In this document: piece after piece, positions 11,911-33,755 of the stretch
Numbering within the stretch: the stretch's first letter is position 1
How the letters are laid out: each line of letters begins with the position of its first letter
Source: a bacterium A37T11
Lineage (GTDB): Bacteria; Bacteroidota; Bacteroidia; Sphingobacteriales; Sphingobacteriaceae
DNA length: 64,000 nt
Direction of reading: 5' to 3'
Assembly: GCA_900109895.1 (NCBI GenBank)
Contig: FOBR01000014.1
Span: forward strand, 62,001 to 126,000
Notes under the pieces: generated by a model
What the model was told of the DNA's origin: nothing
Database searches by the model: none
What the model saw: the letters and a program-made list of their open reading frames with translations, nothing else
Made by a program: the position numbers and the translations under genes

Positions 11911-13623
11911 ATGATGCATCATAAAACTTTATCGGTTATGGCTATTAAAAAATCTTTTTATATTGCATTTTACTTCATATTAGCTACTTTTTGGTTGCCA
12001 GCAGCAGGACAGTCTACCCACTTTAAGCATGGCGTGGTGGTCTCTGCCCACCCCGAAGCGTCTGCTATTGGGCTAGAAATTCTGAAAGCAGGAGGAAATG
12101 CCATTGATGCTGCTGTAGCGGTACAGTTTGCCCTTTCGGTTGTGTATCCCAATGCCGGGAATATTGGTGGGGGTGGTTTTTTGGTCTACAGACCTGCGCA
12201 CGGTACACCCGTTACCCTTGATTACCGCGAAAAAGCTCCGGCTAGGGCCTCCAGCGATATGTTTCTGGACCCGGCTGGTATTCCTATTACCCAGCTTAGC
12301 TTAGATGGTGCTCTTGCCGCTGGTGTGCCTGGATCGGTAGATGGCATGGTACAGGCTCATAAAAGATATGGAAATTTATCCTGGAGGCAAGTGCTCGAAC
12401 CGGCTATACAATTGGCAAAAATTGGTTTTCGCATTACTGAAAAACAAGCCAATGAACTTAACCATTTTCAGGAACGTTTTATTGCATTAAACCCGGGAGG
12501 TAGTCCATTGACCCGACAGGTTCCCTGGAAAAAAGGGGATACGCTGCGCCAGGAAGCATTAGCTCACACCATTTCGCTCATACAGGATAAAGGCCGGAAC
12601 GGCTTTTACGTAGGGGAAACCGCCCAAAAAATTGTCGCTACTATGCAACAGGCAAAGGGTATTATTAGCTTGGAAGATCTGAAAAATTACCATGCACAAT
12701 GGCGCAAACCAGTCATTGGAACTTATCGGGGTTATAAGGTGATATCTATGCCTCCACCTTCCAGTGGTGGTGCGGCGCTAATTGCGTTGCTTAAATCGGT
12801 TGAGGCGTATGCGTTGAGCCGCTGGGGTTTTCAACAAGATTCCACAGTGCGGTTGATCGTTGAGGCTGAGCGCCGTGTATATGCAGACCGGGCTACGCAT
12901 CTGGGCGATCCGGATTTTGTAAAAGTACCCCTAAATCAACTTTTGGACTCTGCTTATAATGCAGGCAGGTTGGCAGGTTTTTCGTTTGAAAAGGCCAGCC
13001 CCAGCTCAACCATTAGCGCCGGGGCAATTGCTCCAGTTGAAAAGGAACAAACCACGCATTTTTCTATTGTTGACAAGGACGGAAATGCAGTCTCAATTAC
13101 AACAACGCTTAATGGATCTTATGGATCGGGGCTGTTTGTAGCGGGAGCCGGCTTTTTATTAAACAATGAGATGGATGATTTTTCGGTCAAACCTGGATCG
13201 CCCAATATGTACGGGTTGGTAGGAGGTACTGCCAATGCCATCGAACCCGGCAAACGCATGCTGAGCTCCATGACACCCACCATCCTTGAAAAAGAGGGAA
13301 AACTCTATTTGGTAGTCGGAACTCCGGGGGGGTCTACCATTATCACATCGGTTTTCCAAACGATCCTTAATGTCATTGACTTTGGCCAGCCGATTCAAGA
13401 AGCGGTTTCTGCTCCGCGTTTTCACCATCAGTGGCTGCCGGATGAGGTAATGACTGAAAAAGGGGCTATAGCGGCCGATGTACGTAAAAAACTTCAGGCG
13501 AGTGGATATGTTATTAAAGAGCGTGGCTCTATAGGTCGGGTGGATGCGATTCTCGTTCTTAAGGATGGTATTTTACAAGGTGGTGCAGATCCCAGAGGGG
13601 ATGATAAGGCCTCGGGATATTAA
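11911..13623 (+). CDS. ggt: Gamma-glutamyltransferase
   Basis: 570 aa periplasmic enzyme that cleaves the gamma-glutamyl bond of glutathione and similar peptides, or transfers the glutamyl group. A signal peptide runs to about residue 34 (LPAAGQ). The precursor is processed by itself before the catalytic threonine, here T381 in EKEQTTHFSIVD; the small subunit also shows LNGSYGSGLFV, MLSSMTPTI and PGGSTIITSV, all standard substrate-pocket blocks. Length fits the family. Two starts are possible (11911 or the ATG at 11938); both leave a signal peptide. It sits between a TonB receptor and a TlpA-like protein, so glutathione or gamma-glutamyl peptide scavenging is plausible. Confidence 0.95.
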   Translation: MMHHKTLSVMAIKKSFYIAFYFILATFWLPAAGQSTHFKHGVVVSAHPEASAIGLEILKAGGNAIDAAVAVQFALSVVYPNAGNIGGGGFLVYRPAHGTPVTLDYREKAPARASSDMFLDPAGIPITQLSLDGALAAGVPGSVDGMVQAHKRYGNLSWRQVLEPAIQLAKIGFRITEKQANELNHFQERFIALNPGGSPLTRQVPWKKGDTLRQEALAHTISLIQDKGRNGFYVGETAQKIVATMQQAKGIISLEDLKNYHAQWRKPVIGTYRGYKVISMPPPSSGGAALIALLKSVEAYALSRWGFQQDSTVRLIVEAERRVYADRATHLGDPDFVKVPLNQLLDSAYNAGRLAGFSFEKASPSSTISAGAIAPVEKEQTTHFSIVDKDGNAVSITTTLNGSYGSGLFVAGAGFLLNNEMDDFSVKPGSPNMYGLVGGTANAIEPGKRMLSSMTPTILEKEGKLYLVVGTPGGSTIITSVFQTILNVIDFGQPIQEAVSAPRFHHQWLPDEVMTEKGAIAADVRKKLQASGYVIKERGSIGRVDAILVLKDGILQGGADPRGDDKASGY

Positions 13624-13640
13624 TATGAACTGTTAAGACA

Positions 13641-14888: not shown

Positions 14889-15883
14889 GCTGCGTGTTCT
14901 TCTTCCTCCACAGGCCGTCTTCCATTTTTGAAAGCCTCCCGTGGCGTTAGTCCCAACGTTTCAAACATGGCCATATCATCCAGAAAATGGGGATTGGGTG
15001 TGGTCAGAAGTTTGTCTCCTGCAAAAATAGAATTGGCACCAGCCATAAAACAAAAAGCTTGTTCTACGGTACTCATCTCATTACGGCCGGCCGATAGGCG
15101 TACGACACTTTTTGGCATCACAATACGGGTAGTGGCAATCATGCGTACCATATCCCAAATGGGTACCCGGGGCTGTTTTTCCAAGGGGGTACCAGGTATG
15201 GGTACCAATGCATTGATGGGCACTGATTCAGGATGAACGTGCATATTAGCCAAAGTACAGATCATCGAGACGCGGTCATCTACCGTTTCGCCCAGACCAA
15301 TGATACCCCCACTGCACACCGTGATCTTTGCCTTACGGACGTTTTTGATCGTATCTAGCCGGTCATCATAGGTACGTGTACTGATAATGCGTTTGTAGTC
15401 TTCTTCCGAGGTATCCAAATTGTGGTTGTAGGCATACAAACCTGCATCTGCCAAGCGTTGCGCTTGGTGTTCATTCAGCATACCCAATGTACAACAGACC
15501 TCCATTTCAAGATCATTTACGGCTTTGACCATGTCTATGACGCGGTCAAAGTCGCGATTATTGCGCACCTCCCGCCAAGCAGCTCCCATGCACAAGCGGG
15601 AAGCGCCACCGGCCTTTGCCGTTTTAGCAGCCGCTATAACCGCGTCTACTTGCATCATGGCCTGCACTTCTACTCCAGTATTGTAGCGTGCAGCCTGCGG
15701 GCAGTAGGCGCAATCTTCCTTGCAACCGCCTGTTTTTATAGATATGAGGGAACTAATCTGAACCTCTCCATAGTCTTTATTTTCGCGGTGTATACTCGCT
15801 GCCTCAAAAACAAGGTCGAGCAAGGGCTTTTGATATATATCCAGTATTTCTTGTCTGGTCCAGTTATGTCTTACAATTGCCAT
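14882..15883 (-). CDS. bioB: Biotin synthase
   Basis: 333 aa from the ATG of MAIVRHNW; the frame extends further only through a TTG and a Cys-containing stretch unlike BioB. It converts dethiobiotin to biotin with radical SAM chemistry. The [4Fe-4S] motif is C54-K-E-D-C58-A-Y-C61, and further family blocks are [33 protein letters not shown] and [10 protein letters not shown]. No other bio genes are adjacent. It is convergent with the TlpA-like gene. Expression signals upstream are not clear; a 448-bp non-coding stretch separates it from the next plus-strand gene. Confidence 0.97.
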
Positions 15884-16081
15884 TGGGTGTTGTGTTGTTA
15901 TGGAACAAAAGAACAAAAAAAAGTGTATGTAACACTCAGAAATTAAAAATCCCTTATTTTTTAATTCGTGCTGAGCATAAATATTATTATCTTTAAATAA
16001 TATTTAAATTGATTTTCAAGTAATTATAATAAAAATAAAAAATTAATTAAAATTTATACTACCATTTTAATAGACTTTATA

Positions 16082-16089
16082 TATATTTG
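16082..16089 (+). promoter_or_regulatory. -7 element ahead of the tandem hairpin region
   Basis: TATATTTG matches TAnnTTTG. It follows a very AT-rich stretch (about 15950-16080) that holds no gene I can support. Transcription from here would cover both RNA hairpins and the GreA-like gene at 16332. Confidence 0.5.
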
Positions 16090-16093
16090 CATC

Positions 16094-16168
16094 ATGAAAC
16101 AAAAACAAAGAATAAAAAATAAACATTTGAATTTCTCTTATCATCATATAGGTTTACAATTGGGTTAG
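16094..16168 (+). CDS. Possible 24-codon leader ORF
   Basis: An ATG four bases after the -7 element opens a 24-codon frame (starts M-K-Q-K-Q-R, ends G-L-Q-L-G) that stops just before the first hairpin. Translation is doubtful: no ribosome binding site would fit between the promoter and this ATG unless the mRNA is leaderless, and the second hairpin copy has no matching ORF. It may simply be RNA leader sequence. Confidence 0.2.
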   Translation: MKQKQRIKNKHLNFSYHHIGLQLG

Positions 16169-16194
16169 TAGAGGTGCCTGCCCATCGGGCACCT
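16146..16194 (+). ncRNA. Tandem RNA element, copy 1 (box plus hairpin)
   Basis: A 29-base box beginning ATATAGGTTTACAATTGG is followed by a hairpin with arms AGGTGCCTG (16172-16180) and CGGGCACCT (16186-16194), 9 pairs including one G-U, loop CCCAT, then TTCTTT. A second copy with the same box and the same loop but a different stem lies about 103 bp downstream. The stem changes are compensatory, which argues for a selected RNA structure. Each copy could work as a terminator or as a small RNA end; the family is unknown to me. Confidence 0.55.
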
Positions 16195-16248
16195 TTCTTT
16201 AACACGAAACAGCTATTGTGGTATATAACAAAGTCTCTCTCTCTCATA

Positions 16249-16300
16249 ATATAGGTTTATAATTGGTTATTAGAGGAATACCTGCCCATCAGGTATTCCT
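16249..16300 (+). ncRNA. Tandem RNA element, copy 2 (box plus hairpin)
   Basis: The box ATATAGGTTTATAATTGG continues to a hairpin with perfect 11-bp arms AGGAATACCTG (16274-16284) and CAGGTATTCCT (16290-16300), loop CCCAT, then TTCTCT. It matches copy 1 in box, loop and tail, with a longer stem of different sequence. It ends 31 bp before the GreA-like gene, so it could attenuate transcription into that gene. Confidence 0.55.
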
Positions 16301-16331
16301 TTCTCTAAAAAAGAACAGTAATAGTTAAAAG

Positions 16332-16595
16332 ATGGATGCTTCAGATAAGAAAAATAATTCAAATCAACCTGTCACCATTCAATTGCATGCTACAGTTAAG
16401 ATACGGGACTTTTACGGAAGGGACATCCATACCTTTCATTTGGTACAACCTGAAAAAGCAACTGAAGGACCCCAATATTTATCCATCGATATGCCGCTTG
16501 CCAAAAAAATACTGGGCAAAAAAGAAGGAGATATTTTTGATTTCCGAGTGATCTCAGGGGCGACTAAAAAATTTATGATCATTGAGGTCACGTAA
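16332..16595 (+). CDS. Stand-alone GreA/GreB C-terminal domain protein
   Basis: 87 aa. The sequence follows the C-terminal FKBP-like domain of transcript cleavage factors (VKIRDFYGRDIHTFHLVQPEKA, LSIDMPLAKKILGKKEGDIFDF) but lacks the N-terminal coiled coil that reaches the polymerase active site. Such short forms may bind RNA polymerase without stimulating cleavage, as Rnk-type proteins do. Its start is 31 bp after the second RNA hairpin. The final 42 bp overlap the convergent aminotransferase gene, a larger overlap than at the other convergent pairs here. Confidence 0.75.
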   Translation: MDASDKKNNSNQPVTIQLHATVKIRDFYGRDIHTFHLVQPEKATEGPQYLSIDMPLAKKILGKKEGDIFDFRVISGATKKFMIIEVT

Positions 16596-17663
16596 TGCCT
16601 TTTGTACACGTTCGTTTTCTGTGGGCAAACCTACCGTAATGCGAACCCAGGTGTGATAGGGTTCAAATACTTTGCCTACGACTATTCCTTGCTCTTTAAG
16701 TTTGGATATGACTTCTTCACTGGGTATTTTTGCATCAAAATAAATAAAATTAGACTGGGAGGTTGTGTGCTTAAGGCCCAAACCGTCTAATACCTGATCC
16801 CATTTTTTACGTTCTAAGATAATTTGTTCTGCTGTATTTTTTAAGTAAACCGTATCTTTTAGAGCGGCATCTGCCGCTACAACGGCTAGTCGGTTAAGGT
16901 CATGCGGACTGCCCAATCCCTGCTTTTTTAATAGCTTCGCTACAGGCGTGGGGGCTATGGCATAGCCGATAGAAAGGCCCGCCAGACCATATGCTTTAGC
17001 AAAGGTTCTAAATACAATCACATTGTCGCCGGCACGCGTGTTATTGATAGCCGAGCGCCCTTCAAAGTCATCTGTAAATTCAAGGTAGGCCTCATCGACT
17101 ATTACCAGCGCTTTGGAAGATATACGGTGTAAAAATGCTTTGAAACCCTCTTTGTCACTCACCGTACCCGATGGATTATGCGGATTGACCAAATAAACAG
17201 CTTTTGTTTTGGGTGTAATAGCAGCCTCAAGAGCCGGCAGGTCGTTTTCCAGCTGCGCATCAAGGGGTATTTCCACAATTTTGCCACCTACCCTGGCAGC
17301 CGCATTTACCAAGGCGGGGTATCCGGGCACGGAATAGATAAACTCACTGCCTGGCCCTGCTTCAATACCTAAATAAACACCTAATAACTCCAGGATTTCA
17401 CCCGTGATGACCTGGTCTGCAGATACCCCCTCCTTTTTGGCGATGTCTGCAATGAGGACATCACCCTCGTTTCTGGTATAGCGTGAAAGGTTTTCAAACT
17501 GTGCGGTGATCGCCTGCCTGACTGCCGGTGCCGGCCCATAAGCATTTTCATTGAGCGATAATAAAATAGGCCTCTTAGGTAATGATATTGTTTGAGCTTG
17601 GGCAGCTGCAATAGCCAGTGCCCCAATCAGGGCAAGCCCTATAGTTTTTCTTATTGTGTTCAT
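16554..17663 (-). CDS. Exported HisC-like PLP aminotransferase
   Basis: 369 aa. Fold-type I PLP enzyme with LNENAYGP, NPHNPSG (160-166), DEAY (190-193) and PLP lysine K223 in TFAKAYGLAGLSIGY, the signature of histidinol-phosphate-type aminotransferases. Unlike HisC it starts with a signal peptide (IRKTIGLALIGALAIAAAQAQ), so it should act in the periplasm; the basic part has RK rather than the twin arginine of Tat signals, although a cofactor enzyme would usually use Tat. It lies 53 bp after a SusD gene in a SusC-SusD operon and no his genes are near. Substrate unknown, probably an amino compound imported by the SusCD pair. Confidence 0.8.
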   Translation of the reverse strand: MNTIRKTIGLALIGALAIAAAQAQTISLPKRPILLSLNENAYGPAPAVRQAITAQFENLSRYTRNEGDVLIADIAKKEGVSADQVITGEILELLGVYLGIEAGPGSEFIYSVPGYPALVNAAARVGGKIVEIPLDAQLENDLPALEAAITPKTKAVYLVNPHNPSGTVSDKEGFKAFLHRISSKALVIVDEAYLEFTDDFEGRSAINNTRAGDNVIVFRTFAKAYGLAGLSIGYAIAPTPVAKLLKKQGLGSPHDLNRLAVVAADAALKDTVYLKNTAEQIILERKKWDQVLDGLGLKHTTSQSNFIYFDAKIPSEEVISKLKEQGIVVGKVFEPYHTWVRITVGLPTENERVQKALRDLNDHKFFSRP

Positions 17664-17716
17664 GGAGTTAAATATCGTGAAAATTTATAAAAACCTTCCC
17701 AAAAGGTATTTTTCAT

Positions 17717-19174
17717 TTAAGGTATCCAAAATAATTTGGCAGACACCTCATCTTTACCACCCGGCAGCGCACTGACCGCTTCTTGCAAATGAGCAGCATT
17801 GGAGTTTTGCTCTGCTGGCGGGTAATAAAAACGAAGCGGGAGTTTTCCCTGGGCTCCTTGAGGCGGGCTCACCACGTCCAGGCTGGGGTAACCCAGCCTT
17901 CTGATCTCCGTCCATGAATCCCAGTTGCGGTTGGCAAACGCAATCCATTTTTGATAGCCGACCTTCTGTTTCCAATCGCCGGCAGCCGTTGCATAGTTAA
18001 CAGCTGGCTGTGCCAGGTACTGCACGGCGTCATCGGCACTACCCCCAAGGCTGGTGATCGAAGCAGTTACCGCTGCCTGGTAGTGACTGGCTGCAGTACC
18101 ACTCACCGCAAAACCGCGTTCGGCAGCCTCCGCCAACAGAAATTCTACTTCGGCATAATCCAGTAATACGCCCGGTGCGGCAGGATCAAGCCACTTACTG
18201 CTAAACTTTGACAGTTCTTGGTTCACGCCACCAGCACCGGCAACAGCACCCGAGTATCCATTAGCAGCGTCTTTGCTGAATAAGATAGGCAAACGCGGGT
18301 CATTCCAAGTTATCAGCGTATTAATAAAAAAGGCTGCTGGCGCATAGTATGTTCCGTAAATACCTGTTACCAGATCCTGATATAGTGGGTTTGAGTTAAT
18401 CACCACACCAGCTGCATAGGGAAAATTGGCGTTATTACTGTTTCCTTCTTCGGGTCCAAACACCCCGCTTTGGATCGCTTCAGCTACTTTTGTTCGCGAA
18501 AGCGCTTGATCGGCATCGGCCAGATACAAGGCCAGCTTAAGTTTTAATGAGGCGGCAAATTTTTTCCATTTAGCCACCTTTCCTTGGTAGATCTGGTCTG
18601 CACTTCCAAAGGAATCGGCATTTACATCCAGCCCTGCTATGTCTGCATCCAGCCTTTTAATCAGGTCTTCGGTGACCGTTTTGGCATCATCGTATTTTGG
18701 GAAAGGAATTTTACGGTCCAGCGCTTCAGAATAGGGTATGTTTCCGAAAGTGTTTACCAGTAAATGGAAGCTATATACTTCTAATATATCGGTAATAAAC
18801 AATTTGTTTGTCTTTACAGCCGCCGGCAGTTTTTCACCCTCATACAGCCCCTTGGCCTGCTCCAGGTTACTCAAGGCTATGGTATAAATACGGTCCCACC
18901 ACCCTCCGGGCGCATTATTGGTCACAAATTGATAGCGTGCCTCATTAATATTGGCAGTTTGGGTCCATACTTGGCTTAATACCCTAAATGGGGAGGACGT
19001 CCATATGCTGGTAGTGTAAAGATCTACCAAACCCTTTTCTCCTGCCAGGAATACCGAATTGGCAGGAACATCTACTGGTGATTTCGGGTCAATGTTCAGT
19101 TCGTCAAAACTTTTTTCGCAAGCTGTCAAAAAGGATAGCAGCGAAATTGCTAATATAAATGTGATTGTTCTCAT
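17717..19174 (-). CDS. SusD/RagB-type outer-membrane lipoprotein
   Basis: 485 aa. Lipoprotein signal with lipobox SFLTAC, then a helical, TPR-like nutrient-binding fold of the SusD-like_2 type (SFDELNIDPKSP at the mature N-terminus; DYAEVEFLLAEAAERG and WTEIRRLGYP near the C-terminus). This lipoprotein forms the lid of the SusC channel encoded 11 bp upstream. Members of this subgroup often occur with peptide- or amino-acid-related enzymes rather than glycosidases, which fits the aminotransferase gene that follows. No glycoside hydrolase is in this operon. Confidence 0.92.
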   Translation of the reverse strand: MRTITFILAISLLSFLTACEKSFDELNIDPKSPVDVPANSVFLAGEKGLVDLYTTSIWTSSPFRVLSQVWTQTANINEARYQFVTNNAPGGWWDRIYTIALSNLEQAKGLYEGEKLPAAVKTNKLFITDILEVYSFHLLVNTFGNIPYSEALDRKIPFPKYDDAKTVTEDLIKRLDADIAGLDVNADSFGSADQIYQGKVAKWKKFAASLKLKLALYLADADQALSRTKVAEAIQSGVFGPEEGNSNNANFPYAAGVVINSNPLYQDLVTGIYGTYYAPAAFFINTLITWNDPRLPILFSKDAANGYSGAVAGAGGVNQELSKFSSKWLDPAAPGVLLDYAEVEFLLAEAAERGFAVSGTAASHYQAAVTASITSLGGSADDAVQYLAQPAVNYATAAGDWKQKVGYQKWIAFANRNWDSWTEIRRLGYPSLDVVSPPQGAQGKLPLRFYYPPAEQNSNAAHLQEAVSALPGGKDEVSAKLFWIP

Positions 19175-23256: not shown

Positions 23257-23388
23257 CCAATATGAACTAGTTATTTAGTAGACTAAAATAGAGTTGAAAC
23301 CTAAAAAATACCTTAAGCTTTTATAAATAGGTTGTATTTATGCTCAAAAAGGAATAAAATATATCTTAATACTTTAAAATATAAATAG

Positions 23389-23397
23389 TTAATTTGC
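23389..23397 (+). promoter_or_regulatory. Weak -7-like element ahead of the cysteine leader
   Basis: TTAATTTGC differs from TAnnTTTGC at one key position and lies 54 bp before the leader ORF. The stretch 23257-23450 is otherwise AT-rich and has no gene; a short palindrome TTTAGT-AG-ACTAAA lies at 23274-23287. Confidence 0.25.
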
Positions 23398-23450: not shown

Positions 23451-23582
23451 ATGAAATTAATAAATACTTTTAAAATTGTAAATTTAGTTAAAGCGATACC
23501 GAAACCCGTTTTTACTCCCACCAGTACCACAAAGGCATCCTATACGTTTATGCGCCAAAGCATCCGTATATGTTGTTGTTAA
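23451..23582 (+). CDS. Leader peptide ending in Cys-Cys-Cys
   Basis: A 43-codon ORF starting MKLINTFKIV ends S-I-R-I-C-C-C with codons TGT TGT TGT directly before TAA, 137 bp upstream of the SusC start. An internal ATG at 23550 would give the 10-residue form MRQSIRICCC. The operon it precedes carries thiol-oxidising enzymes. A ribosome pausing on the Cys codons when cysteine is scarce could change folding of the RNA that follows. The neighbouring SusC operon has a similar ORF ending R-M-C-C. This is the best candidate in the window for a new regulatory element; translation and attenuation are inferred. Confidence 0.55.
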   Translation: MKLINTFKIVNLVKAIPKPVFTPTSTTKASYTFMRQSIRICCC

Positions 23583-23719
23583 TACCCTAAACCCCAGCTG
23601 TTGATACTGCACCCTTTGAAAGCCTAAACCGGCAGATGAGGTTATAATACATCCCTTATTAATCATTAACACCCTAGTAGCTGCCAATCGCAGCATACTG
23701 TCTATTATTAAAAGATAAA
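23583..23719 (+). promoter_or_regulatory. Leader RNA between Cys-run ORF and SusC
   Basis: 137 bp with no gene. A short GC-rich hairpin GCTGC-CAATC-GCAGC lies at 23680-23694, 25 bp before the SusC start. TGTTAAT at the leader stop (23577-23583) can pair with ATTAACA (23665-23671), so at least two mutually exclusive folds are possible. No T run follows the hairpin, so any attenuation may act on translation or through Rho rather than by an intrinsic terminator. Confidence 0.35.
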
Positions 23720-26700
23720 ATGAGATACAGCTTAAAAACTATTGTATTATTATTAATGATCAGTCCTGTTTATTCTTTAGCACAAGAGACCACGCCACGT
23801 GTCAACTCGAACCTACATGGAAAGGTACTCGATTCATTAAGCCATGAGCCCCTGCCCGGCGCTACTGTCCAAATAGAAGGAGTCACTCACAGCGTAAAAA
23901 CGGACGCTGAAGGAAATTATAATTTCGTGACAGGGCAAAAGCTACCTTATACACTCATTATTAGTTATGTGGGATATAAAACAAAAAAAGTAATTGCAAA
24001 GGTGAGTCCATTGAATATGTTATTAACTGCTGATGCAAATCAACTGGAAGATGTGGTTGTTGTAGGATATGGTACGCAAACCAAAAAAGATCTGGTAGGT
24101 TCTGTTTCCAAAATAGAAGCTGATGAAATAAATCGTATACCAGTCGCCAGTTTCGATGCACAGATACAAGGCAAATCAACAGGAATACAGGTAAACAATA
24201 ACTCTGGGGTACCAGGTGATGGTATTAACGTAAGAGTGAGGGGTACAACATCGATATTAGCAGACAATAATCCATTATATATAGTTGATGGTGTATTTAT
24301 TAATAACTCCAGCCTGCAAACCGTGCATACAGGAGGACGTACAACTTCGCCAATAGCCGATATAAACCCAACTGATATTATTAGCATGGAAGTACTTAAA
24401 GATGCAAGCGCAACCTCTATTTATGGGGCCAGAGGTGCAAATGGAGTAGTTATCATTACTACTAAAAGGGGAAATTATAACAGTGCACCAAAAATAAACT
24501 TAAATGTCTCTGCAGGGCAAGGGAAATTGTCTAAATACCATTTTTGGGAATTGAGCGATGGTCCAACAAATGCGGAAGCAGTAAATCAAAATTATATTAA
24601 TACCAGACTCGACAAGGGAATAGCGTATGATGTAGCTTATGCATCTAGGCCGTTCCGCCCCAAAATTGAGGGTGGCAGGGGCAATCCTGCTGAACAAGAA
24701 ACCTATGATCGCGTAGGAAGGGTTTTTCGAAATGCTAAGCTTAACGACTATGATCTATCATTACAAGGAGGATCAGAAAGTACTAAATATTTTATTTCAG
24801 GAGCGTATACTTCACAGGAATCTATATTAAAGGTAGCGGATTTTGAACGCGAAAGCTTAAAATTGAATTTAGACCAAAAAATCAACAATCATATTAATAT
24901 TGGCGTCAGCAATACATTTAGCAGAACGGGACGCAGTCAGGTTGGGGCAGGAAACGGATCTCAGGGAAATATTTTATCAAGCGCTGCACTGGTGCAAGGA
25001 ACTTATAATCCTATATATAATCCAGACGGCACACCTTCGTTATCAGGAAACAGGGATAACGTTGATGTAATGATAGAAGACACAGATATAAAAGCAGTAA
25101 GCACAAGATATATCGCAAATTTATTTGCTGAAATTGAAATACTTAAAGATCTTAAATTTAAAACGAGCTGGAGTCTGGACTACAATTTATATGACGAGAA
25201 AGGGTATTGGTCTGACCGCATGTTGCAAGGCCAAAATGGCGGAGATGCCATATCATCAATTTCCCAAGCAACGACCTGGATCAATGAGCAAACTTTATTT
25301 TACCGAAAAAAAATAAAAGGACATACATTTGGTATATTGTTTGGAAATACCTTACAAGGTAATACCCGCAAAAATACTACGGCTGAGGGCTCCGGATTTC
25401 CAAATAATTCCTACCGTTCCATATCCGATGCATCTATTAAAAGTAATTCTGAGTCTTGGACAGGGTCCAATTTGGCTTCCTTCTTTTCACGTATAGATTA
25501 TAATTTTCAAAGCCGTTATTTCATAGAAGCCAGTATCAGAGCTGACGGCTCTTCAAGGTTTGGATCTAAAAACAAATGGGGTTATTTCCCATCCATAGGC
25601 GGATCATGGCGACTAAAAGAAGAAAGCATTCTTAAAGATGTTTCGGCCATTAATGAATTAAAATTAAGGGCCAGCTATGGATTAACAGGCAATCAAAATG
25701 GAATTGTTGATTATGCCTCCAGTGGATTATGGACTGGTGGTGCCCCGTATGCCAATTCGGCTGGCGGTGGTTATTCCGCTGGTACGGCACCTTATCAGCT
25801 CGGGAATCCTTACCTCCAATGGGAAAAAACAAGTCAGGTAAATGTTGGTTTGGATATTGGATTATTTAACAAAATAACAATAGATGCTAATATCTACAAA
25901 AAGTACACCACTGATGCCCTGCTTAGCGCTCCTTTACCATCATCATCAGGTCATAGCAGTTATGTTGCCAACGCAGGAGAATTAAGTAATAAGGGTTTTG
26001 AATTCGGAATAGACGCCACAATTGTTAAAAGCAATTTGTTTAGCTGGAATACCAATTTCAATATCTCCAGAAATATCAACAAAGTTGAAAAATTAATTGT
26101 ACCCATTACTTATTATTCCAGGGACTGGATTCGGCTGGAAGAAGGCTATCCCGTAAATTCATTTTGGGTATATAATCAGTTATATGTGGATCCCCAAACC
26201 GGTAATGCTGTATATGAAGATGTAAATTCAGACGGTAAGATCACAGCAGATGACCGGAAAATTATTGGAACTGCCTTACCTGACTATTTCGGCGGATTTA
26301 CAAACAAATTATCCTATAAAGGAGTTGACCTATCCTTTTTGTTTACCTATCAAATAGGAAATAAAATGCTGAACTTAAACCGATTTCTTAGTATGCATGG
26401 AGGAACACGGGCTGACAGATCGTTATATAAAGAAGATGAAAATTACTGGAAAAAACCTGGAGATATAACCGATATACCACGATTTACGTCGCAAGGAAAC
26501 AATTGGACATTAGAGACAGTAAACAGATTTATTGAAGATGCGTCATTCTTGAGGTTAAAAAACTTAACTGTGGGATACGGTCTCTCAAAAGACTTAGCAA
26601 AAAAATTTAAAGTGCAGGATTTGCGGATATATATTACCGGAACCAATTTATGGCTTTACTCAAAATATAAAGGTCCTGATCCAGAATCCAACACAGATGC

Positions 26701-26782
26701 TGAGCAAATGGTACAAGGTATTGACTTCGGTACCCCTCCCCAACCAAAAACATTTCAATTGGGCATTAATGTAACCCTATAA
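23720..26782 (+). CDS. SusC/RagA-type TonB-linked outer-membrane transporter
   Basis: 1020 aa. Signal peptide (to about PVYSLAQ, residue 22), carboxypeptidase-like domain (about 33-105), plug with DVVVVGYGTQTKKDLVGSVS, the SusC block ATSIYGARGANGVVIITTKRG near residues 230-252, then a barrel ending FQLGINVTL. It works with the SusD lipoprotein encoded 11 bp downstream to import a substrate with TonB energy. It heads a run of ten same-strand genes with very short gaps, ending in the rhodanese. The enzymes in that run act on sulfur compounds, so an organosulfur ligand is more likely than a glycan; no glycoside hydrolase is present. Confidence 0.95.
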   Translation: MRYSLKTIVLLLMISPVYSLAQETTPRVNSNLHGKVLDSLSHEPLPGATVQIEGVTHSVKTDAEGNYNFVTGQKLPYTLIISYVGYKTKKVIAKVSPLNMLLTADANQLEDVVVVGYGTQTKKDLVGSVSKIEADEINRIPVASFDAQIQGKSTGIQVNNNSGVPGDGINVRVRGTTSILADNNPLYIVDGVFINNSSLQTVHTGGRTTSPIADINPTDIISMEVLKDASATSIYGARGANGVVIITTKRGNYNSAPKINLNVSAGQGKLSKYHFWELSDGPTNAEAVNQNYINTRLDKGIAYDVAYASRPFRPKIEGGRGNPAEQETYDRVGRVFRNAKLNDYDLSLQGGSESTKYFISGAYTSQESILKVADFERESLKLNLDQKINNHINIGVSNTFSRTGRSQVGAGNGSQGNILSSAALVQGTYNPIYNPDGTPSLSGNRDNVDVMIEDTDIKAVSTRYIANLFAEIEILKDLKFKTSWSLDYNLYDEKGYWSDRMLQGQNGGDAISSISQATTWINEQTLFYRKKIKGHTFGILFGNTLQGNTRKNTTAEGSGFPNNSYRSISDASIKSNSESWTGSNLASFFSRIDYNFQSRYFIEASIRADGSSRFGSKNKWGYFPSIGGSWRLKEESILKDVSAINELKLRASYGLTGNQNGIVDYASSGLWTGGAPYANSAGGGYSAGTAPYQLGNPYLQWEKTSQVNVGLDIGLFNKITIDANIYKKYTTDALLSAPLPSSSGHSSYVANAGELSNKGFEFGIDATIVKSNLFSWNTNFNISRNINKVEKLIVPITYYSRDWIRLEEGYPVNSFWVYNQLYVDPQTGNAVYEDVNSDGKITADDRKIIGTALPDYFGGFTNKLSYKGVDLSFLFTYQIGNKMLNLNRFLSMHGGTRADRSLYKEDENYWKKPGDITDIPRFTSQGNNWTLETVNRFIEDASFLRLKNLTVGYGLSKDLAKKFKVQDLRIYITGTNLWLYSKYKGPDPESNTDAEQMVQGIDFGTPPQPKTFQLGINVTL

Positions 26783-26793
26783 TAATTTGAACA

Positions 26794-28164
26794 ATGAAAA
26801 GACAAGAAATAAATAGATTGCAAGCTATTTTACTAATTGTATTCTTAATAATGAATTCATGCAGTAAATTTTTGGAAGTTGAACCTAAGAATTATGTTTC
26901 TGATGAAATCACAATTACAGATGCCGCATCCGCACAGACATCGGTGCGAGGTATATATGATGCGTTGGCTTCCAGTGGATACTATGGCCGGTCTTTCCAG
27001 TCTATAGGTTATTTATCCGGAGATAATTTACAGTTTACTGGTACTGTGGTTTATAATCAGCAATTTATTATACACAACGTACAGTCTGATAACGGAACCA
27101 TATCAAGCGTATGGACTGCAATTTACAAAGCGATAGACAGGGCCAATCATGCTATCGAAAAAATTCCAGCCATCACTGATCCGAAATTAACCAGCACATT
27201 AAAAGATCAGCTCATTGGGGAAGCTTACTTTATCAGAGCATTGGCCTATTTTGATCTGGCTAGAGTATATGGTGGAGTGCAATTATTAACTAAACCAACT
27301 TCGTCACTTGAAAATATAACCGAAACAAAGAGAAGTTCTTTAGAAGAAACTTACAATCAGGTTAAATCAGATCTGGAAAACGCGGAAAATCTTTTACCCA
27401 ACACGTTGAACCGTGTTCGGGCAACCAAGAAGACGGCTTGGGCGCTATTCGCCAGATACTACCTTTATACAAAGGAATGGGATAAAGCGAGTAGTTACGC
27501 TACCCAGCTTATCGAAGAGACTACCAATTATCCACTAATTGCCCCATATAACTCGTGGTTTGCGAACAATATTGTAGCTTCTCCAGAGTCCATATTTGAA
27601 CTCAGTTATGACCCTGCATTCATAACAGGTAATTCAGCGCACAGAAATTCATGGCAGCCCACTGAAAATGGGGGAATTAAGGATTGGATACCGAATGAAG
27701 ATTTCCTGCAATTGATTAATAACCCACTAATCGGCGGTAATCGCAATACCCTTGTAGCTAAAACAGCGTCAACTTGGTATGGAAATTTGTACTATAGATC
27801 AAACGGTACCGACCCTGCATATGTATTACGGATTGCGGAACAATACCTGATCCGAGCAGAAGCATTTGCAGAACAAGGAAACTTAGAAGCAGCATATGAA
27901 GATCTTAATGCGATAAGAAATCGAGCGGGACTAGAAGCAATAGGCTACAAGGCCTCCAGTACAACAAAAGAAACCACCTTACTCGCTATAGAAAATGAAA
28001 GGAGGCTTGAATTCGCATTTGAACCTCACAGGTGGTTTGACCTTGTCAGGACAGGAAGAGCAGCAACTGTTTTGGGGATTACCGATACAAAAAAATACCT
28101 AATGCCGATTCCATTAGTTGAAATAAAAGTAGACAAATGGCTAGAACAAAATCCTGGTTACTAA
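26794..28164 (+). CDS. SusD/RagB-type outer-membrane lipoprotein
   Basis: 456 aa. Lipoprotein signal with lipobox IMNSC (C23), then SKFLEVEPKNYVSDE, the usual SusD opening, an N-terminal SusD-like domain (ARVYGGVQLLT) and a C-terminal RagB/SusD domain (AEQYLIRAEAFAEQGNLEAA, NERRLEFAFEPHRWFDLVRTG). It is the ligand-binding lid for the SusC transporter encoded just upstream. A membrane-protein gene starts 14 bp after its stop. Ligand unknown. Confidence 0.95.
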   Translation: MKRQEINRLQAILLIVFLIMNSCSKFLEVEPKNYVSDEITITDAASAQTSVRGIYDALASSGYYGRSFQSIGYLSGDNLQFTGTVVYNQQFIIHNVQSDNGTISSVWTAIYKAIDRANHAIEKIPAITDPKLTSTLKDQLIGEAYFIRALAYFDLARVYGGVQLLTKPTSSLENITETKRSSLEETYNQVKSDLENAENLLPNTLNRVRATKKTAWALFARYYLYTKEWDKASSYATQLIEETTNYPLIAPYNSWFANNIVASPESIFELSYDPAFITGNSAHRNSWQPTENGGIKDWIPNEDFLQLINNPLIGGNRNTLVAKTASTWYGNLYYRSNGTDPAYVLRIAEQYLIRAEAFAEQGNLEAAYEDLNAIRNRAGLEAIGYKASSTTKETTLLAIENERRLEFAFEPHRWFDLVRTGRAATVLGITDTKKYLMPIPLVEIKVDKWLEQNPGY

Positions 28165-28178
28165 TACACATTTTAAAA

Positions 28179-29522
28179 ATGAGCAACTCAGAAATTTCAC
28201 CTTCCACAGCATGGAAGCAATGGGAAATAGACATATTTAGATTTACGTTTCTATTTATCATTCTTCTATCTTTCCCCCTACTTGATTACAAGTTTTATAC
28301 CACCCTATTTTCTACAGAAATAAATGTCAGATCTATTTTGGATTTGACAAAATACCTACCGCAATACATTACTGAAATCGCGTTGCCAAAATGGGGTATT
28401 GGCAGTTTTGCTAATTGGGGGGTCAGTACAATAGTAGCTATTATTCTTGCCACAGTTTGGAGATTTTACGATAAAAACAAGAGAGAATATAATAAATTGT
28501 ACTATTGGTTGCGTGTTATTGTTCGCTATCGGTTGGCAATTGGATTGATTGCCTACGGATTCGTAAAATTCTTCCCTTTACAAGTACCCTATCCTTCTCT
28601 AAGCAATCTGCACACCAACTACGGTGACTTTTATGCATGGAAAATTTATTACCATACACTTGGTATCGTTCCCAAATATGAATCGTTTTTGGGATTTGTC
28701 GAAATTGCAGCTTCAGTACTACTCGTGTTCCGAAAAACATCTACGATTGGGGCAGGGATCATCATTGGATTTTTGGGAAACGTAGTTATTGTCAACTTTG
28801 CGTATGATATTGGGGATCATGTATACAGTTCATATTTACTTCTGCTAGCACTCCTTGTTTTTGCTTATGATGCGCCCAGACTGTACAGCTTATTAATAAA
28901 ACAACAAAAAACTTTGGCTAACAAATATATTCCGTTATTATCAAGCAAAACAAAACACGTTAGAACCATCTTAAAAGTTGCGTTTGCATTATTTGCATTA
29001 ACCTTTGGATTGCTTGCTTTTCGTAATTACACAGGAAACCCTTATTTGCTGCCCAAAAATCCAGGATTATCCGGGGCATATGGATTTTATGATGTAAAAC
29101 ATTTTGTTTTTAATGGTGACACTATCCCATATTCCCTTACCGATCCCAATAGGTGGCAAAACGTTGTATTTGAAAAGTGGTCAACACTTAGCCTTAAAAT
29201 TGCCCGGCCAATAAAAATAGACCCGACAAATGGGGATGAATGGCATGACAATGATTTAGATAGGAATTATGAACTTGCAGGCACAGGAGGAAGGCACTAT
29301 TTTTCTTATTCTGCAGACACTGTAAACCACACGTTACATTTGAAGAACAAAAATAAATATTACAAAGCAGAGAAACTAGAACTTTCCTATTCTTTTCCAA
29401 ATGACAGCACTATTATCCTATCAGGATATACTGAAAAAAAAGATACTATATATGCGTTATTGGAAAGAATTAATAAAAGGTATATGCTGTTTGAAGGTCG
29501 AAGAAAGCCGGTGAAGTTGTAA
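28179..29522 (+). CDS. DoxX-like membrane protein with C-terminal beta domain, paralogue 1
   Basis: 447 aa from the ATG of MSNSEISP; the longer frame would start inside the SusD gene. Several hydrophobic segments in the first 300 residues form a DoxX-like region: VRYRLAIGLIAYGFVKFFP, then GIVPKYESFLGFVEIA and FRKTSTIGA, then YDIGDHVYS. A last membrane span is followed by about 140 residues of beta-rich sequence with IPYSLTDPNRWQ, GGRHYFSY and ILSGYTEKKDTIYALL, probably outside the cytoplasm. DoxX relatives include thiosulfate:quinone oxidoreductase subunits. It is the most divergent of four consecutive paralogues. Function unknown. Confidence 0.75.
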   Translation: MSNSEISPSTAWKQWEIDIFRFTFLFIILLSFPLLDYKFYTTLFSTEINVRSILDLTKYLPQYITEIALPKWGIGSFANWGVSTIVAIILATVWRFYDKNKREYNKLYYWLRVIVRYRLAIGLIAYGFVKFFPLQVPYPSLSNLHTNYGDFYAWKIYYHTLGIVPKYESFLGFVEIAASVLLVFRKTSTIGAGIIIGFLGNVVIVNFAYDIGDHVYSSYLLLLALLVFAYDAPRLYSLLIKQQKTLANKYIPLLSSKTKHVRTILKVAFALFALTFGLLAFRNYTGNPYLLPKNPGLSGAYGFYDVKHFVFNGDTIPYSLTDPNRWQNVVFEKWSTLSLKIARPIKIDPTNGDEWHDNDLDRNYELAGTGGRHYFSYSADTVNHTLHLKNKNKYYKAEKLELSYSFPNDSTIILSGYTEKKDTIYALLERINKRYMLFEGRRKPVKL

Positions 29523-29543
29523 GCATTAGAAAAAAATGTGAAT

Positions 29544-30911
29544 ATGGCACATACAAATAGTTTAATAAATTGGACAGAACAGCAAAAATTAGTGTTCCGA
29601 ATTGCCTTCGTAATGCTGATTTTTTTGTGCGTCCCAACCGATTTGGAATGGTATCAGCACCTAATCAACTATAACTGGAGTGCTCTTCATTGGAATTACT
29701 TATATAGCATTGCAGCTTCTGGTCGCCCCCTTGAAGTAGTTACAATACCTGGAGAAAGCGGCAGATGGGGATTAGCTAGTTATACGAATACATTTGTTAT
29801 TTTCTTTATTGCCATACTTTTAGGACTCATATGGACACGTTTGGACAAAAAGTCGCGTCATTACAACAAATTAAATTACTGGATTCGGGTAGTTGCGCGC
29901 TATCAGTTAGGATTTGCAATTATAGCCTGGGGCTACCGAAAAATAGTGCCGTTACAAATGATGTGGCCACCTACCAACTTACTGAATACACCTTTGCTAT
30001 ACATACAAGAACAAAAGATATATTGGCAGTCTATTGGAATTGTACCGTCTTACGAAATATTTCTTGGTTTTGCCGAATTTTTTTCAGGTTTCTTTTTATT
30101 ATTTCGTAAAACAACCGGATTAGGTGCGTTATTGACAGTAGTAGTTTTAGCTAATATTGTAATTATCAACCATACATATGATGGTGGGGTTCATATCCCT
30201 AGTTTCACATTTGTATTGGTTGCATTAATATTATTGTGGAGAGACTTACCAAATGTTTACGCACTATTAATAAAAGAAAAAACCATTCAACCTCACCATT
30301 ATTATTATCCCTTTTCAAAAACCTGGGAAAAATATAGCAGGTACCTGTTAAAATTTACTGGCTTTGCGATATTTGTAGTTCTTGAATTTTTTTTGCATTT
30401 ATTTGGGGAACCAAAATATCGCGTACCCGACAGGCCCGGGCTTAAAAACAAGGCTGGCTACTACCATGTAACTGAATTCCGATTGAACAATAGAACGATT
30501 GCTTATTCTCCATTCGACAGTTTGAGGTGGCAAGATGCGATATTGGAAGACTGGGCTACTTTGGCATTTAAGGTCAACCGCAAAGAAATAATAGACCAGT
30601 CAAATGGCCCTTCATTAAAACCAGGTGGTGGATTAGTAGATGATATTGACAGGGGCTGGGAATCAGCAGGGGTGCAGGGAAGGCATTTCTTTTACTATGT
30701 CGCCGATACAGTTAACCAAATTCTATATTTACAAAACAAAAACAAACTTTACCGCGATGAACGGCAAATATTGCATTATAGCTTTCCTTCAAAATCTAGA
30801 ATCCTATTTTCCGGAATAAATGAATATAAAGATTCCATTTATGTCGTATTAGATAGGATCGACATGAAATATCCGGTAATAAGTTCCCGCCATTCTGCTC
30901 AGGCTTTTTAA
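29544..30911 (+). CDS. DoxX-like membrane protein with C-terminal beta domain, paralogue 2
   Basis: 455 aa from ATG (a GTG two codons earlier is the alternative). Same build as its neighbours: a polytopic part with VARYQLGFAIIAWGYRKIVP, GIVPSYEIFLGFAEFFSG, FRKTTGLGA and YDGGVHIPS, a final span, then a soluble beta-rich domain with IAYSPFDSLRWQDAILEDW, QGRHFFYY and LFSGINEYKDSIYVVLDR. Conserved His in GGVH and RH pairs in the last domain are possible ligand or cofactor residues. It starts about 20 bp after paralogue 1. Close likeness to paralogue 3 suggests a recent tandem duplication. Confidence 0.75.
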   Translation: MAHTNSLINWTEQQKLVFRIAFVMLIFLCVPTDLEWYQHLINYNWSALHWNYLYSIAASGRPLEVVTIPGESGRWGLASYTNTFVIFFIAILLGLIWTRLDKKSRHYNKLNYWIRVVARYQLGFAIIAWGYRKIVPLQMMWPPTNLLNTPLLYIQEQKIYWQSIGIVPSYEIFLGFAEFFSGFFLLFRKTTGLGALLTVVVLANIVIINHTYDGGVHIPSFTFVLVALILLWRDLPNVYALLIKEKTIQPHHYYYPFSKTWEKYSRYLLKFTGFAIFVVLEFFLHLFGEPKYRVPDRPGLKNKAGYYHVTEFRLNNRTIAYSPFDSLRWQDAILEDWATLAFKVNRKEIIDQSNGPSLKPGGGLVDDIDRGWESAGVQGRHFFYYVADTVNQILYLQNKNKLYRDERQILHYSFPSKSRILFSGINEYKDSIYVVLDRIDMKYPVISSRHSAQAF

Positions 30912-30921
30912 TCTCAATCAG

Positions 30922-32310
30922 ATGCCAAACCATATATCTTTAACAAATATTATATCTGGAAGTTATGAAAATAGCTCATCAATATTAAAAATAATGGGTT
31001 TCCGCAGCATTTTCGTGTTTGTTGTTTTTCTGTGTATACCATTTGACCCTTTGTTCTATAGCGGACTATTTTCTATAGACTGGACTTCCTTAAGGTGGCC
31101 AACTTTGGCAGGAATAGCAAGCGGATTAGGTTCACCCAAATGGGTTAATTTGAATCCTGAGGATCAATGGGGATTATTAAGCTACATTAACCTATTAATT
31201 TCATACATAATATCATTTTTAATAGCTGTTATTTGGTCAATACTGGACAAAAAAAGAAGATCATACAGCACACTTTTCTATTGGATATTAGTGATAGCCA
31301 GATACAGGGCTGCATACGGCATTATTGCTTGGGGATATAAAAAACTCATCCCCTATCAAATGGAACTTCCTTCCATTTCTTATTTAAATACACCATTTGG
31401 TGATTTCAGAGCTCAAAAACTATATTGGCAAGGTGTTGGTATTGCTCAGCACTATGAAATTTTCCTAGGATTTGCAGAGGTATTTGCAGGTATTCTACTT
31501 TTATTCAGAAGAACTACTTCTTTTGGTGCAGCTCTATTATTCGCGATTCTAATGAATATAGCACTGGCAAATCATGCTTATGAAGGCGGGGTACACGTAC
31601 ACAGCTTTACCTTTGCCTTACTAGGATTGATTATTTTATGGCCACAATTGCCATCTATATATCAATTGCTGATACACGGACATGATGCCGAACCAAACAT
31701 CTATTATCCTTCTTTTCATAATAACTGGGTAAAATATATCAGGTACCTGTTTAAAGCCACTGGTGCCAGTGTGTTTGTCTTTTTTTTATTTTACTTGTTT
31801 ATAAAAGATGATCTAGGTTATCGCTTTCCTTACGAACAGCCTATACTCAAAAATGCTACAGGGAGATATGATGTTACTGAGTTTCGGGTCAATAATCAAA
31901 TATTACCTTATTCCCCATTTGATTCTGTCAGATGGCAGGATGCGATCTTTGAAAAATGGTGTACCCTAACGTTTAAAGTAAACCGTAAACAGCAGATGGA
32001 CCTGGACAATCAGGGAAATAGCCGGAAGAGCATTGAGATGCGGTTTGAATATGCAGGTGTTGGCGGAGGCAGGCATTATTTCGACTATCAAATAGATACC
32101 ATTAAACAACTATTGTATTTGCAGAATAAAAACAGGGCACATCGAGATCAGCAGCAAATACTACACTATGAAAGACCCAATAAGGACAGGATCATCTTAA
32201 GTGGTATTAATGAATACAAAGATTCCATTTATGTCGTATTGGATAGAAATAAACATGATTATCCATTATATCAAAATAGAAGGCCTACCAACAAAATTAT
32301 TAGAAAGTAA
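30922..32310 (+). CDS. DoxX-like membrane protein with C-terminal beta domain, paralogue 3
   Basis: 462 aa. Repeats the same architecture: IARYRAAYGIIAWGYKKLIP, GIAQHYEIFLGFAEVFAG, FRRTTSFGA, YEGGVHVHS in the membrane part; GRYDVTEFRVNNQ, LPYSPFDSVRWQDAIFEKW, GGRHYFDY and ILSGINEYKDSIYVVLDR in the C-terminal domain. The shared ending KDSIYVVLDR with paralogue 2 is exact. It lies 10 bp after paralogue 2, within the same transcript. No catalytic residues are known for this combined form; the DoxX relation only suggests quinone-linked redox or membrane-sensor work. Confidence 0.75.
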   Translation: MPNHISLTNIISGSYENSSSILKIMGFRSIFVFVVFLCIPFDPLFYSGLFSIDWTSLRWPTLAGIASGLGSPKWVNLNPEDQWGLLSYINLLISYIISFLIAVIWSILDKKRRSYSTLFYWILVIARYRAAYGIIAWGYKKLIPYQMELPSISYLNTPFGDFRAQKLYWQGVGIAQHYEIFLGFAEVFAGILLLFRRTTSFGAALLFAILMNIALANHAYEGGVHVHSFTFALLGLIILWPQLPSIYQLLIHGHDAEPNIYYPSFHNNWVKYIRYLFKATGASVFVFFLFYLFIKDDLGYRFPYEQPILKNATGRYDVTEFRVNNQILPYSPFDSVRWQDAIFEKWCTLTFKVNRKQQMDLDNQGNSRKSIEMRFEYAGVGGGRHYFDYQIDTIKQLLYLQNKNRAHRDQQQILHYERPNKDRIILSGINEYKDSIYVVLDRNKHDYPLYQNRRPTNKIIRK

Positions 32311-32324
32311 TTAAAAAAAATAAA

Positions 32325-33755
32325 ATGAACAAGTTAACTATAGAAAGTAACAGTTCCTGGTCCGGCAATCAGCTCTTTTGGTTTCGCTCGGCTTTTATAT
32401 TCTTTATTATTATGTCAGTACCTCTACAATGGTCTTGGTTTGAGCGTCTTTTTGCTATAGATATCTTTGATTTAACCTATAGGGATCTTTACGAGATATC
32501 AGGGTATAATCCACGTATATGGTCCGTACCAACTGAAAGCGGAAGGTGGGGATTAGCCAGTTTTACAGATTGGCTGATCATATTCATTATTGCACTTGCC
32601 GGGGCAGCGATATGGTCGTATTTTGTCAGAAATAAAAAGACAAAGGCCTATAATAACTTATATTATTGGATACAGGTAATTGTGCGATACCGGGTGGCGG
32701 CAGGACTCATCACTTTCGGGTATGTGAAATTATTTCCAGTACAAATGCCCGCTCCTTCTATTACTGTGCTTAATACAGAAATTATAAATATTCTTTCCCA
32801 AAAACTTTACTGGTCATCTGTGGGCATAGTTACCTGGTATGAAGTATTTCTGGGTTTTGCTGAGATCTTTGCCGGGGCATTGATGTTCTCTAGAAGATCA
32901 AGTAGTTTGGGGGCTTGCTTGACCATCGGGGTTTTATTTAACATTTTTTTAGCTAATATTTATTACGATGGTGGAGTACATGTTTACGCCTTATACTTCG
33001 TACCATTATCTTTATTTTTGCTCATCCAGGACTTTCCTAAAGTATGGCAGTTGCTGGCTAATGAAAAAGACACCCTACTTAACAGGTACAGACCCGCATT
33101 AAACCGCACCGCATATTATACCACCAGGGGTCTTAAATATTTGTTCATAGGCATATACCTGCCTTTTCAGTTCTACATCATGTACTCCAATCATTATATA
33201 GAAGTCAAAGTTAGAAAACAACCCGTTCAGGCAGGGTTAAAAAATAGTGCAGGGTATTATGAGGTTTCTGAATTTAAACTCAATGGTAAAACTATCCCTT
33301 ACTCCCCTTACGACACAGTGAGATGGCAAACCGCAACTTTTGAGAAATGGACCACGTTTACGTATAGGGTTAACAAGCCTTTTTTTCCGGATTTATCAAA
33401 CGGCGGGCCGGCCAAAAAGGACATAGACCGGAATTTTGAATATTCTGGTGTGGCAGGGGGACAACGATTTCTCTATTACGAAGCAGACACCACAAATCAT
33501 GCCCTGACTTTTTATGACAAAAATCTTCCACCAAACGTGATCAAAGGCAAGATACGGTCTTCAAAAAGGGAACGAGACCTGGCAGAGAAAAGTCGCATCA
33601 CCTTTACATTAACTTATAGCAGACCCACTATATCAAGCCTCGTCTTATCGGGATTAAACGAACAGAAGGACTCACTCTATATAGTTTTGAACAAAATTGA
33701 CAAAAGATATCCGCTGATAGATGGAAGGCGGCAATTAGCAACAAACAGCAATTAG
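32325..33755 (+). CDS. DoxX-like membrane protein with C-terminal beta domain, paralogue 4
   Basis: 476 aa, the longest paralogue. Membrane part: IVRYRVAAGLITFGYVKLFP, GIVTWYEVFLGFAEIFAG, SRRSSSLGA, YDGGVHVYA. C-terminal part: GYYEVSEFKLNGKTIPYSPY, VRWQTATFEKW, GGQRFLYY, with an insert of about 20 charged residues (KIRSSKRERDLAEKSR), then LVLSGLNEQKDSLYIVLNK. The RH pair found in the other three is QR here, so that histidine is not strictly kept. It starts 14 bp after paralogue 3 and ends 13 bp before the DUF1684 gene. Confidence 0.75.
   Translation: MNKLTIESNSSWSGNQLFWFRSAFIFFIIMSVPLQWSWFERLFAIDIFDLTYRDLYEISGYNPRIWSVPTESGRWGLASFTDWLIIFIIALAGAAIWSYFVRNKKTKAYNNLYYWIQVIVRYRVAAGLITFGYVKLFPVQMPAPSITVLNTEIINILSQKLYWSSVGIVTWYEVFLGFAEIFAGALMFSRRSSSLGACLTIGVLFNIFLANIYYDGGVHVYALYFVPLSLFLLIQDFPKVWQLLANEKDTLLNRYRPALNRTAYYTTRGLKYLFIGIYLPFQFYIMYSNHYIEVKVRKQPVQAGLKNSAGYYEVSEFKLNGKTIPYSPYDTVRWQTATFEKWTTFTYRVNKPFFPDLSNGGPAKKDIDRNFEYSGVAGGQRFLYYEADTTNHALTFYDKNLPPNVIKGKIRSSKRERDLAEKSRITFTLTYSRPTISSLVLSGLNEQKDSLYIVLNKIDKRYPLIDGRRQLATNSN

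Follow-up and report, generated by a model that had tools for sequence, protein, structure and literature searches.

A poly-Cys leader ORF was confirmed as real in front of the susC gene of the window, the term used here for the whole stretch of 64,000 nucleotides of DNA that was analysed. It is one of about 100 otherwise dissimilar candidate leaders that end in Cys codons ahead of predicted sulfur-scavenging uptake operons across Bacteroidota. It probably serves as a cysteine-responsive leader-peptide attenuator, its translation, the stalling of ribosomes, the direction of the response, and the part played by Rho being deduced from sequence. The leaders suggest that these operons are switched on when ribosomes run short of cysteine.

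The leader ORF occupies positions 23451-23582 of the plus strand, comprises 43 codons, and is translated as MKLINTFKIVNLVKAIPKPVFTPTSTTKASYTFMRQSIRICCC, with the TAA stop at 23580-23582. Three Cys codons, TGT TGT TGT (23571-23579, plus strand), adjoin the stop and form the proposed stall site, and 137 nt separate the stop from the susC ATG at 23720; the ORF, its Cys-Cys-Cys-stop ending, and its distance from susC had been given correctly in the preliminary description. Leaders of the same kind were recovered at 96 distinct loci. The 43-codon start was preferred over an internal start that would yield a 10-codon form, because it lies in an A-rich context, AAACAACATG, similar to the one seen in Pedobacter leaders, AAACAATG; the shorter form would be possible and is not favoured. 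Bacteroidota ribosomes largely do without Shine-Dalgarno pairing. The window leader was compared with leaders of other genera, its own genus being represented by a single species in the collection.

All genes of the operon behind the leader are located on the plus strand. It begins with a SusC/RagA TonB-dependent transporter (23720-26782; TIGR04056, 783 bits) and a SusD lipoprotein (26794-28164; PF14322 and PF07980), followed by four paralogous membrane proteins arranged in tandem, each about 460 aa long (28137-33755), which are kept in the operon of relatives, are widespread in Bacteroidota, and gave no match in Pfam, NCBIfam, or the PDB. These are followed by a DUF1684 protein (33769-34677; PF07920), an MFS transporter (34677-35933; PF07690), a cysteine-dioxygenase-type thiol dioxygenase (35950-36558; PF05995, E = 3.4e-7, 30.4 bits with a cut-off of 23), and a protein with four rhodanese domains (36555-38246; PF00581, 142 bits, four stretches), so that the SusC, thiol dioxygenase, and rhodanese content claimed earlier was found as stated. 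Further downstream are an NAD-dependent epimerase-like protein (DUF1731; 38326-39255), a YeiH-type membrane protein (39358-40614; PF03601, 181 bits), and an FAD/NAD-dependent oxidoreductase (40688-42106), which is kept in the operon of relatives. PF03601, which also occurs in leader-bearing sulfatase operons, is taken here to denote a YeiH-type protein with a putative role in sulfate/sulfite export. The operons of some relatives also hold a molybdopterin oxidoreductase with a Mo-co dimerisation domain and a cytochrome c, a predicted pair whose domain composition is that of sulfite dehydrogenases. A peptidase S51 (cyanophycinase-type) gene was observed inside the same operon in several relatives, for example at 12586-13638 of the minus strand in locus L133.

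The occurrence of such leaders was determined for the window SusC and its relatives in the same family, 50 upstream regions in all. ATG ORFs with at least three Cys in the last six codons were present in 21 of the 50 regions, compared with 0.22 expected from dinucleotide shuffles, and those with at least two Cys in 33, compared with 3.6 expected. This comparison is the unbiased test for Cys, and its counts refute a chance origin for the leader family. A scan of named genomes carrying the membrane protein of the operon gave 80 loci. The leaders end in two to six Cys before orthologues of the window operon (SusCD, rhodanese, YeiH, and sulfite-dehydrogenase-like genes) and before sulfatase-SusCD operons, and were present, among the Sphingobacteriaceae and others in the scan, in Pedobacter, Mucilaginibacter, Daejeonella, Arcticibacter, Sphingobacterium, Niastella, Ferruginibacter, Longitalea, Cnuella, Paracnuella, Larkinella, Dyadobacter, Pontibacter, and Flavobacterium; by group, these are Sphingobacteriaceae, several Chitinophagaceae and Cytophagales, Pontibacter, and Flavobacterium. 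Among the operon-bearing genomes scanned, no leader was found directly at susC in Chitinophaga, Runella, Siphonobacter, Fibrisoma, Spirosoma, and Emticicia. Another gene ends 31-34 nt before susC in Chitinophaga, and susC is therefore not first there. Emticicia has a leader ending in QCCC and a stop about 4 kb upstream of susC, directly behind a SAM riboswitch (RF00162, 60 bits; L201, 1121-1355), and this leader precedes a cluster with YceI-like, cysteine desulfurase, and O-acetylhomoserine-sulfhydrylase-like genes and then SusCD (genes named by eye).

Relatives of the SusC proteins of two leader-bearing sulfatase operons in the genome of the window were included as well, and Cys leaders were found at 24 of 36 family loci, a few of which are represented twice. 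In 20 loci that were read further, most had SusD and CxPSR sulfatases and several also had rhodanese-type proteins and YeiH; over the leader-bearing relatives, CxPSR sulfatase, rhodanese, YeiH, molybdopterin-oxidoreductase, and cytochrome c genes were recorded. The link between leader and sulfatase is not absolute, since five loci at which no leader was detected (L304, L308, L310, L312, and L313) still hold sulfatases. A poly-Cys leader before a non-SusC gene was observed in L225 (reverse complement, ORF stop at 17427), where MPLFKRQGCCCCC and its stop are located 75 nt before a phytanoyl-CoA-type dioxygenase-like protein, named by eye.

Leaders elsewhere in the genome of the window were sought by pattern. 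A total of 56 susC genes were found, and exactly three of them have an upstream ATG ORF that ends in at least three Cys. The two further leaders, MKNRFLLISPVLSFKMVSKSWMSYLCCC and MKIYMHFSLPHRMCCCC (each followed by a stop), both head SusC-SusD-sulfatase operons, one sulfatase being confirmed as PF00884, and in all three the SusC domain starts at almost the same distance from the ORF stop (233, 236, and 238 nt). When the threshold was lowered to two Cys among the last six codons, six of the 56 susC genes were obtained, the three leaders among them, compared with 3.1 expected, which is near background. Given this restriction to 3 of 56 susC genes and the sulfur genes downstream, the poly-Cys leader follows sulfur operons and not susC in general. 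A poly-Cys ORF before a TonB receptor at C12 (L008) has a TTG start and 8 codons, is weak, and was left out of the counts. Behind a sulfatase operon of the genome (L074, reverse complement, 15516-18225), genes for a family 2 encapsulin-like protein and a cysteine desulfurase with a long N-terminal extension were observed, by eye a sulfur-storage compartment pair.

Because a minimum of two Cys among the last eight residues was the criterion by which the 96 distinct leaders were chosen, the 32-fold enrichment of Cys in that segment is partly built in; Met, which was not a selection criterion, is enriched 2.7-fold there. The median leader length is 31 codons (range 5-62). Cys is the final residue in 58 leaders and is followed by one further codon in 23. 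Both TGT (249 occurrences) and TGC (115) are used, and therefore the amino acid is kept rather than the DNA word. In ten Pedobacter leaders, two of which are identical, the Cys cluster has 100% identity and the remainder of the peptide 38%. Conservation of the terminal Cys codons among relatives, which had been put forward as the check on the original proposal, was thus borne out by the shuffle counts and by Pedobacter, and a cluster that is kept while the peptide around it drifts, as would be expected of a cysteine-responsive leader attenuator, was found both over the 96 leaders and within the ten. On this comparison, the conserved item is a short run of Cys codons beside the stop and not a protein. 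The residue preceding the Cys cluster was observed to be Met in 30 of the 96 leaders; the leader may count methionine too, or may carry an internal start.

Promoter elements were sought upstream of the leaders. An exact -7 box, TAnnTTTG, is present within 130 nt upstream of the leader ATG at 74 of 97 loci compared with 12.9 expected, the candidate boxes mostly lying 9-60 nt before the ATG. Leaders are thus predicted to sit just behind a Bacteroidota-type promoter, at the head of a transcript whose start is predicted and not mapped. The candidate -7 box of the window, TTAATTTG (23389-23396, plus strand), has one mismatch to TAnnTTTG and is about 55 nt before the leader ATG. A 17-bp dyad, TCTAY-N7-RTAGA, which is probably the site of an undescribed sulfur regulator, was found near the promoter at 74 of 97 loci compared with 1.6 expected, and at 2 of the 56 susC controls of the genome; in L173, for example, it is located about 84 nt before the leader ATG. 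When four Pedobacter genomes were scanned less strictly, the dyad turned up not only at the leaders but also upstream of a gene that by eye is TauE/SafE-like (L321, one Pedobacter) and at further sites without clear meaning, a reversed-pattern control being nearly as frequent in two of the four genomes. The leader region of the window has no TCTAY-N7-RTAGA dyad. An element there, TTTATAAATAGGTTGTATTTATGCTCAA (23320-23347, plus strand), resembles by eye one upstream of the genome's second leader (L016) and is a possible regulator site that would replace the dyad of the relatives.

The spacer between leader and susC varies from 57 to 387 nt across loci and has two recurring hairpins. The first is strong and is preceded by an A-run before its 5' arm at 43 of 96 loci compared with 0.8 expected, with T-rich DNA after it at one, so that by sequence it resembles a minus-strand terminator; it is missing from the window. 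The second has the loop GUAACGCCAAUCAC (AACGCCAAU) 63-75 nt before susC, or the reverse complement UCAAUUGGCGUUG 43-50 nt before it, and its stems covary at most loci: AGATCAG/CTGATCT, AGTTTCGGT/ACCGAAGTT, GGGCAG/CTGCCC, GCCGG/CCGGC, and TGAAACAGGA/TCCTGTTTCG. A family search with the loop sequence alone returned further Cys leaders, three of them before a susC-like gene (L232, L235, and L237) and another in L231, where no downstream gene was read. The GCTGC/GCAGC hairpin reported just before the SusC start is present in the window as UAGUAGCUGC-CAAUC-GCAGCAUACUG (23675-23700, plus strand; z -3.5). It retains the GCCAAUC core together with the outer stem, some of the loop having been converted to stem, and is, as far as kinship can be judged by eye, a divergent member of the conserved GUAACGCCAAUCAC-loop family.

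No pseudoknot or other intramolecular partner was found for the conserved loop. Rfam gave no known family at the window leader region and none in the susC upstream regions of seven relatives, the sole match, Flavo-1 in L133, lying elsewhere in that locus. The consensus fold of a mixed-genus alignment was uninformative because the length of the first hairpin differs between genera. In the window, no sense-strand intrinsic terminator was found between leader and susC, and across loci T-rich DNA follows 1 of the 77 best hairpins; a classical terminator/antiterminator attenuator was rejected on these counts. The words TGTTAAT and ATTAACA, for which a switch had been suggested, both occur, and their pairing is no better than in shuffled sequence (z +0.68; mean -0.3 over the 96 leaders); no pairing of any kind between the Cys end and downstream RNA gave a signal over the 96 loci. 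The spacer directly behind the leader stop (23583-23674, plus strand) is C-rich and G-poor and is a candidate Rho-loading region, a role proposed from its base composition; the 137-nt intergenic region as a whole has 35 C and 19 G. C exceeds G in the first 70 nt behind the leader stop at 57 of 69 loci, a modest bias that is shared by descent.

Sensing of cysteine by the ribosome is proposed because of the Cys codons, their place at the stop, the ORF heading the predicted transcript, and the sulfur genes downstream. Of the original idea of ribosome-based poly-Cys attenuation, the kept Cys codons and the sulfur operons stand, and the TGTTAAT/ATTAACA switch does not. The first ORF of the transcript would be the short leader, with Cys codons directly before its stop: three in the window leader and as many as six in relatives, often accompanied by Met. 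With ample Cys-tRNA, the ribosome would finish and leave, and the transcript would be aborted or silenced before susC, most likely by Rho loading on the C-rich RNA behind the stop. With cysteine short, the ribosome would stall on the Cys codons and cover the stop and the RNA behind it, Rho would be blocked, and the operon for import and processing of organic sulfur would be expressed, with an antisense RNA perhaps acting alongside. The terminator counts favour Rho or translation over a classical terminator, and a Rho-type mechanism is preferred because there is neither a sense terminator nor pairing of the Cys end, the excess of C over G lending modest support. Evidence against the attenuator is that the Cys end and the downstream RNA form no base-pairing switch, that the C-over-G excess is modest and shared by descent, and that the operon is without a recognisable leader in some genomes (Runella, Siphonobacter, Spirosoma, and others), as are some sulfatase operons. 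The cysteine dioxygenase and sulfite genes may alternatively function in disposing of sulfur, in which case induction by cysteine shortage would make less sense.

Other explanations were weighed against this one. That the window holds an ordinary short ORF across the TGTTGTTGT stretch, arisen by chance, is extremely improbable: the leader is one case within an AT-rich intergenic region, but the counts of susC leaders in the genome, the shuffle test, the leaders of relatives, the promoter position, and the Cys enrichment over 96 leaders all oppose it. A sensor formed by the peptide is quite improbable as well: in that reading, the Cys cluster of the nascent chain would detect copper, zinc, or thiol oxidation, and the ribosome would be arrested or released in response, on the model of CruR and copper. 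The arrangement of a Cys-rich peptide before a TonB-dependent transporter with a long intergenic region is that of CruR; however, C-terminal Cys would still be inside the ribosome tunnel at the stop, the 96 leaders vary in Cys number and spacing and have no conserved CXXC or arrest motif, and the downstream genes are sulfur genes and not metal genes.

Control primarily by antisense RNA, with the leader as partner, is rather unlikely. In such a scheme, a short minus-strand RNA ending at the minus-strand terminator behind the leader would bind the 5' region of susC by a UUGGCG/CGCCAA kissing-loop interaction and repress it, and leader translation would modulate access, as in IncI/IncFII plasmids. 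The A-run hairpin and the conserved loop with covarying stems are consistent with this; a kissing pair would account for a loop tolerated in either orientation, and the loop is without an intramolecular partner. UUGGCG is also the loop motif of the ColIb-P9 inc RNA target, according to the title of a paper cited in PMC10724649, and fits the YUNR U-turn rule (PMC6562991), and sRNAs that repress susC mRNAs are known in Bacteroides (PMC11697453). Against it, a minus-strand -7 box is not above chance (11 of 58 compared with 8.8 expected), and in the window the second hairpin is divergent and the minus-strand terminator absent. It is unlikely, although conceivable, that the elements form one composite sulfur switch, in which a cysteine-counting leader peptide would be combined with a cis-antisense RNA bearing the UUGGCG kissing loop and with the 17-bp sulfur-regulator dyad. 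If true, an arrangement so far known from plasmid copy-number control would be present on chromosomal SusCD-sulfatase and sulfite operons.

Carbohydrate import under the control of glycan sensors is the role for which SusCD systems are chiefly known. The findings favour cysteine-responsive attenuation and point to a SusCD class that is devoted to supplying sulfur and is controlled, via the ribosome, by the cysteine status of the cell. The signature of a Cys-ending leader, the 17-bp dyad, and the AACGCCAAU hairpin would serve to find sulfur-scavenging operons and to predict the role of unassigned SusCD pairs. As the preliminary description had supposed, no Cys leader was found described for Bacteroidota or SusC genes in the open-access literature.

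In the leader attenuators of the trp, his, and leu operons, a short leader contains codons for the amino acid concerned, and tnaC stalls at its end against Rho. The leaders described here differ from these in that no sense terminator/antiterminator was found and in that the Cys codons are at the stop. IncI/IncFII plasmid replication control (PMC10724649) combines a leader peptide with an inc/CopA antisense RNA; the leader ORF followed by an antisense-looking UUGGCG/CGCCAA hairpin is similar, whereas a chromosomal nutrient operon is concerned here, the antisense RNA is a candidate, and no pseudoknot partner was found near the start codon. FopS, a paralogous sRNA family, represses PUL mRNAs by a 5' seed (PMC11697453); the proposed post-transcriptional control at the susC start resembles that by the FopS/GibS sRNAs of Bacteroides PULs, although FopS has no Cys leader. 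In Bordetella, a stalled uORF has been shown to place a TonB-dependent transporter under the control of Rho (CruR/bfrG), CruR being a DUF2946 protein of about 145 residues that senses copper by CXXC and has a RAPP arrest motif (PMC9426467). A uORF before a TonB-dependent transporter, a long intergenic spacer, and, as proposed here, a stalled ribosome acting against Rho are shared with CruR, whereas the present leaders have 5-62 codons, end in Cys codons, and lack DUF2946, CXXC, and RAPP. The leaders also resemble those of mycobacteria, for which cysteine-directed attenuation by poly-Cys leaderless sORFs was proposed (Shell 2015, PMC4633059) and for which the title of Canestrari 2020 (Mol Microbiol 114:93; cited in PMC9094748) reports cysteine-responsive attenuation. 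In both, a short ORF with a C-terminal Cys cluster precedes genes of sulfur metabolism, the ORF here being first on the transcript by its predicted start. The present leaders, predicted from sequence, differ in phylum, in their SusCD and sulfatase targets, in a spacer with conserved hairpins, and in not being leaderless, the predicted 5' UTR being tens of nt long; they would extend cysteine-codon attenuation from mycobacteria to another phylum.
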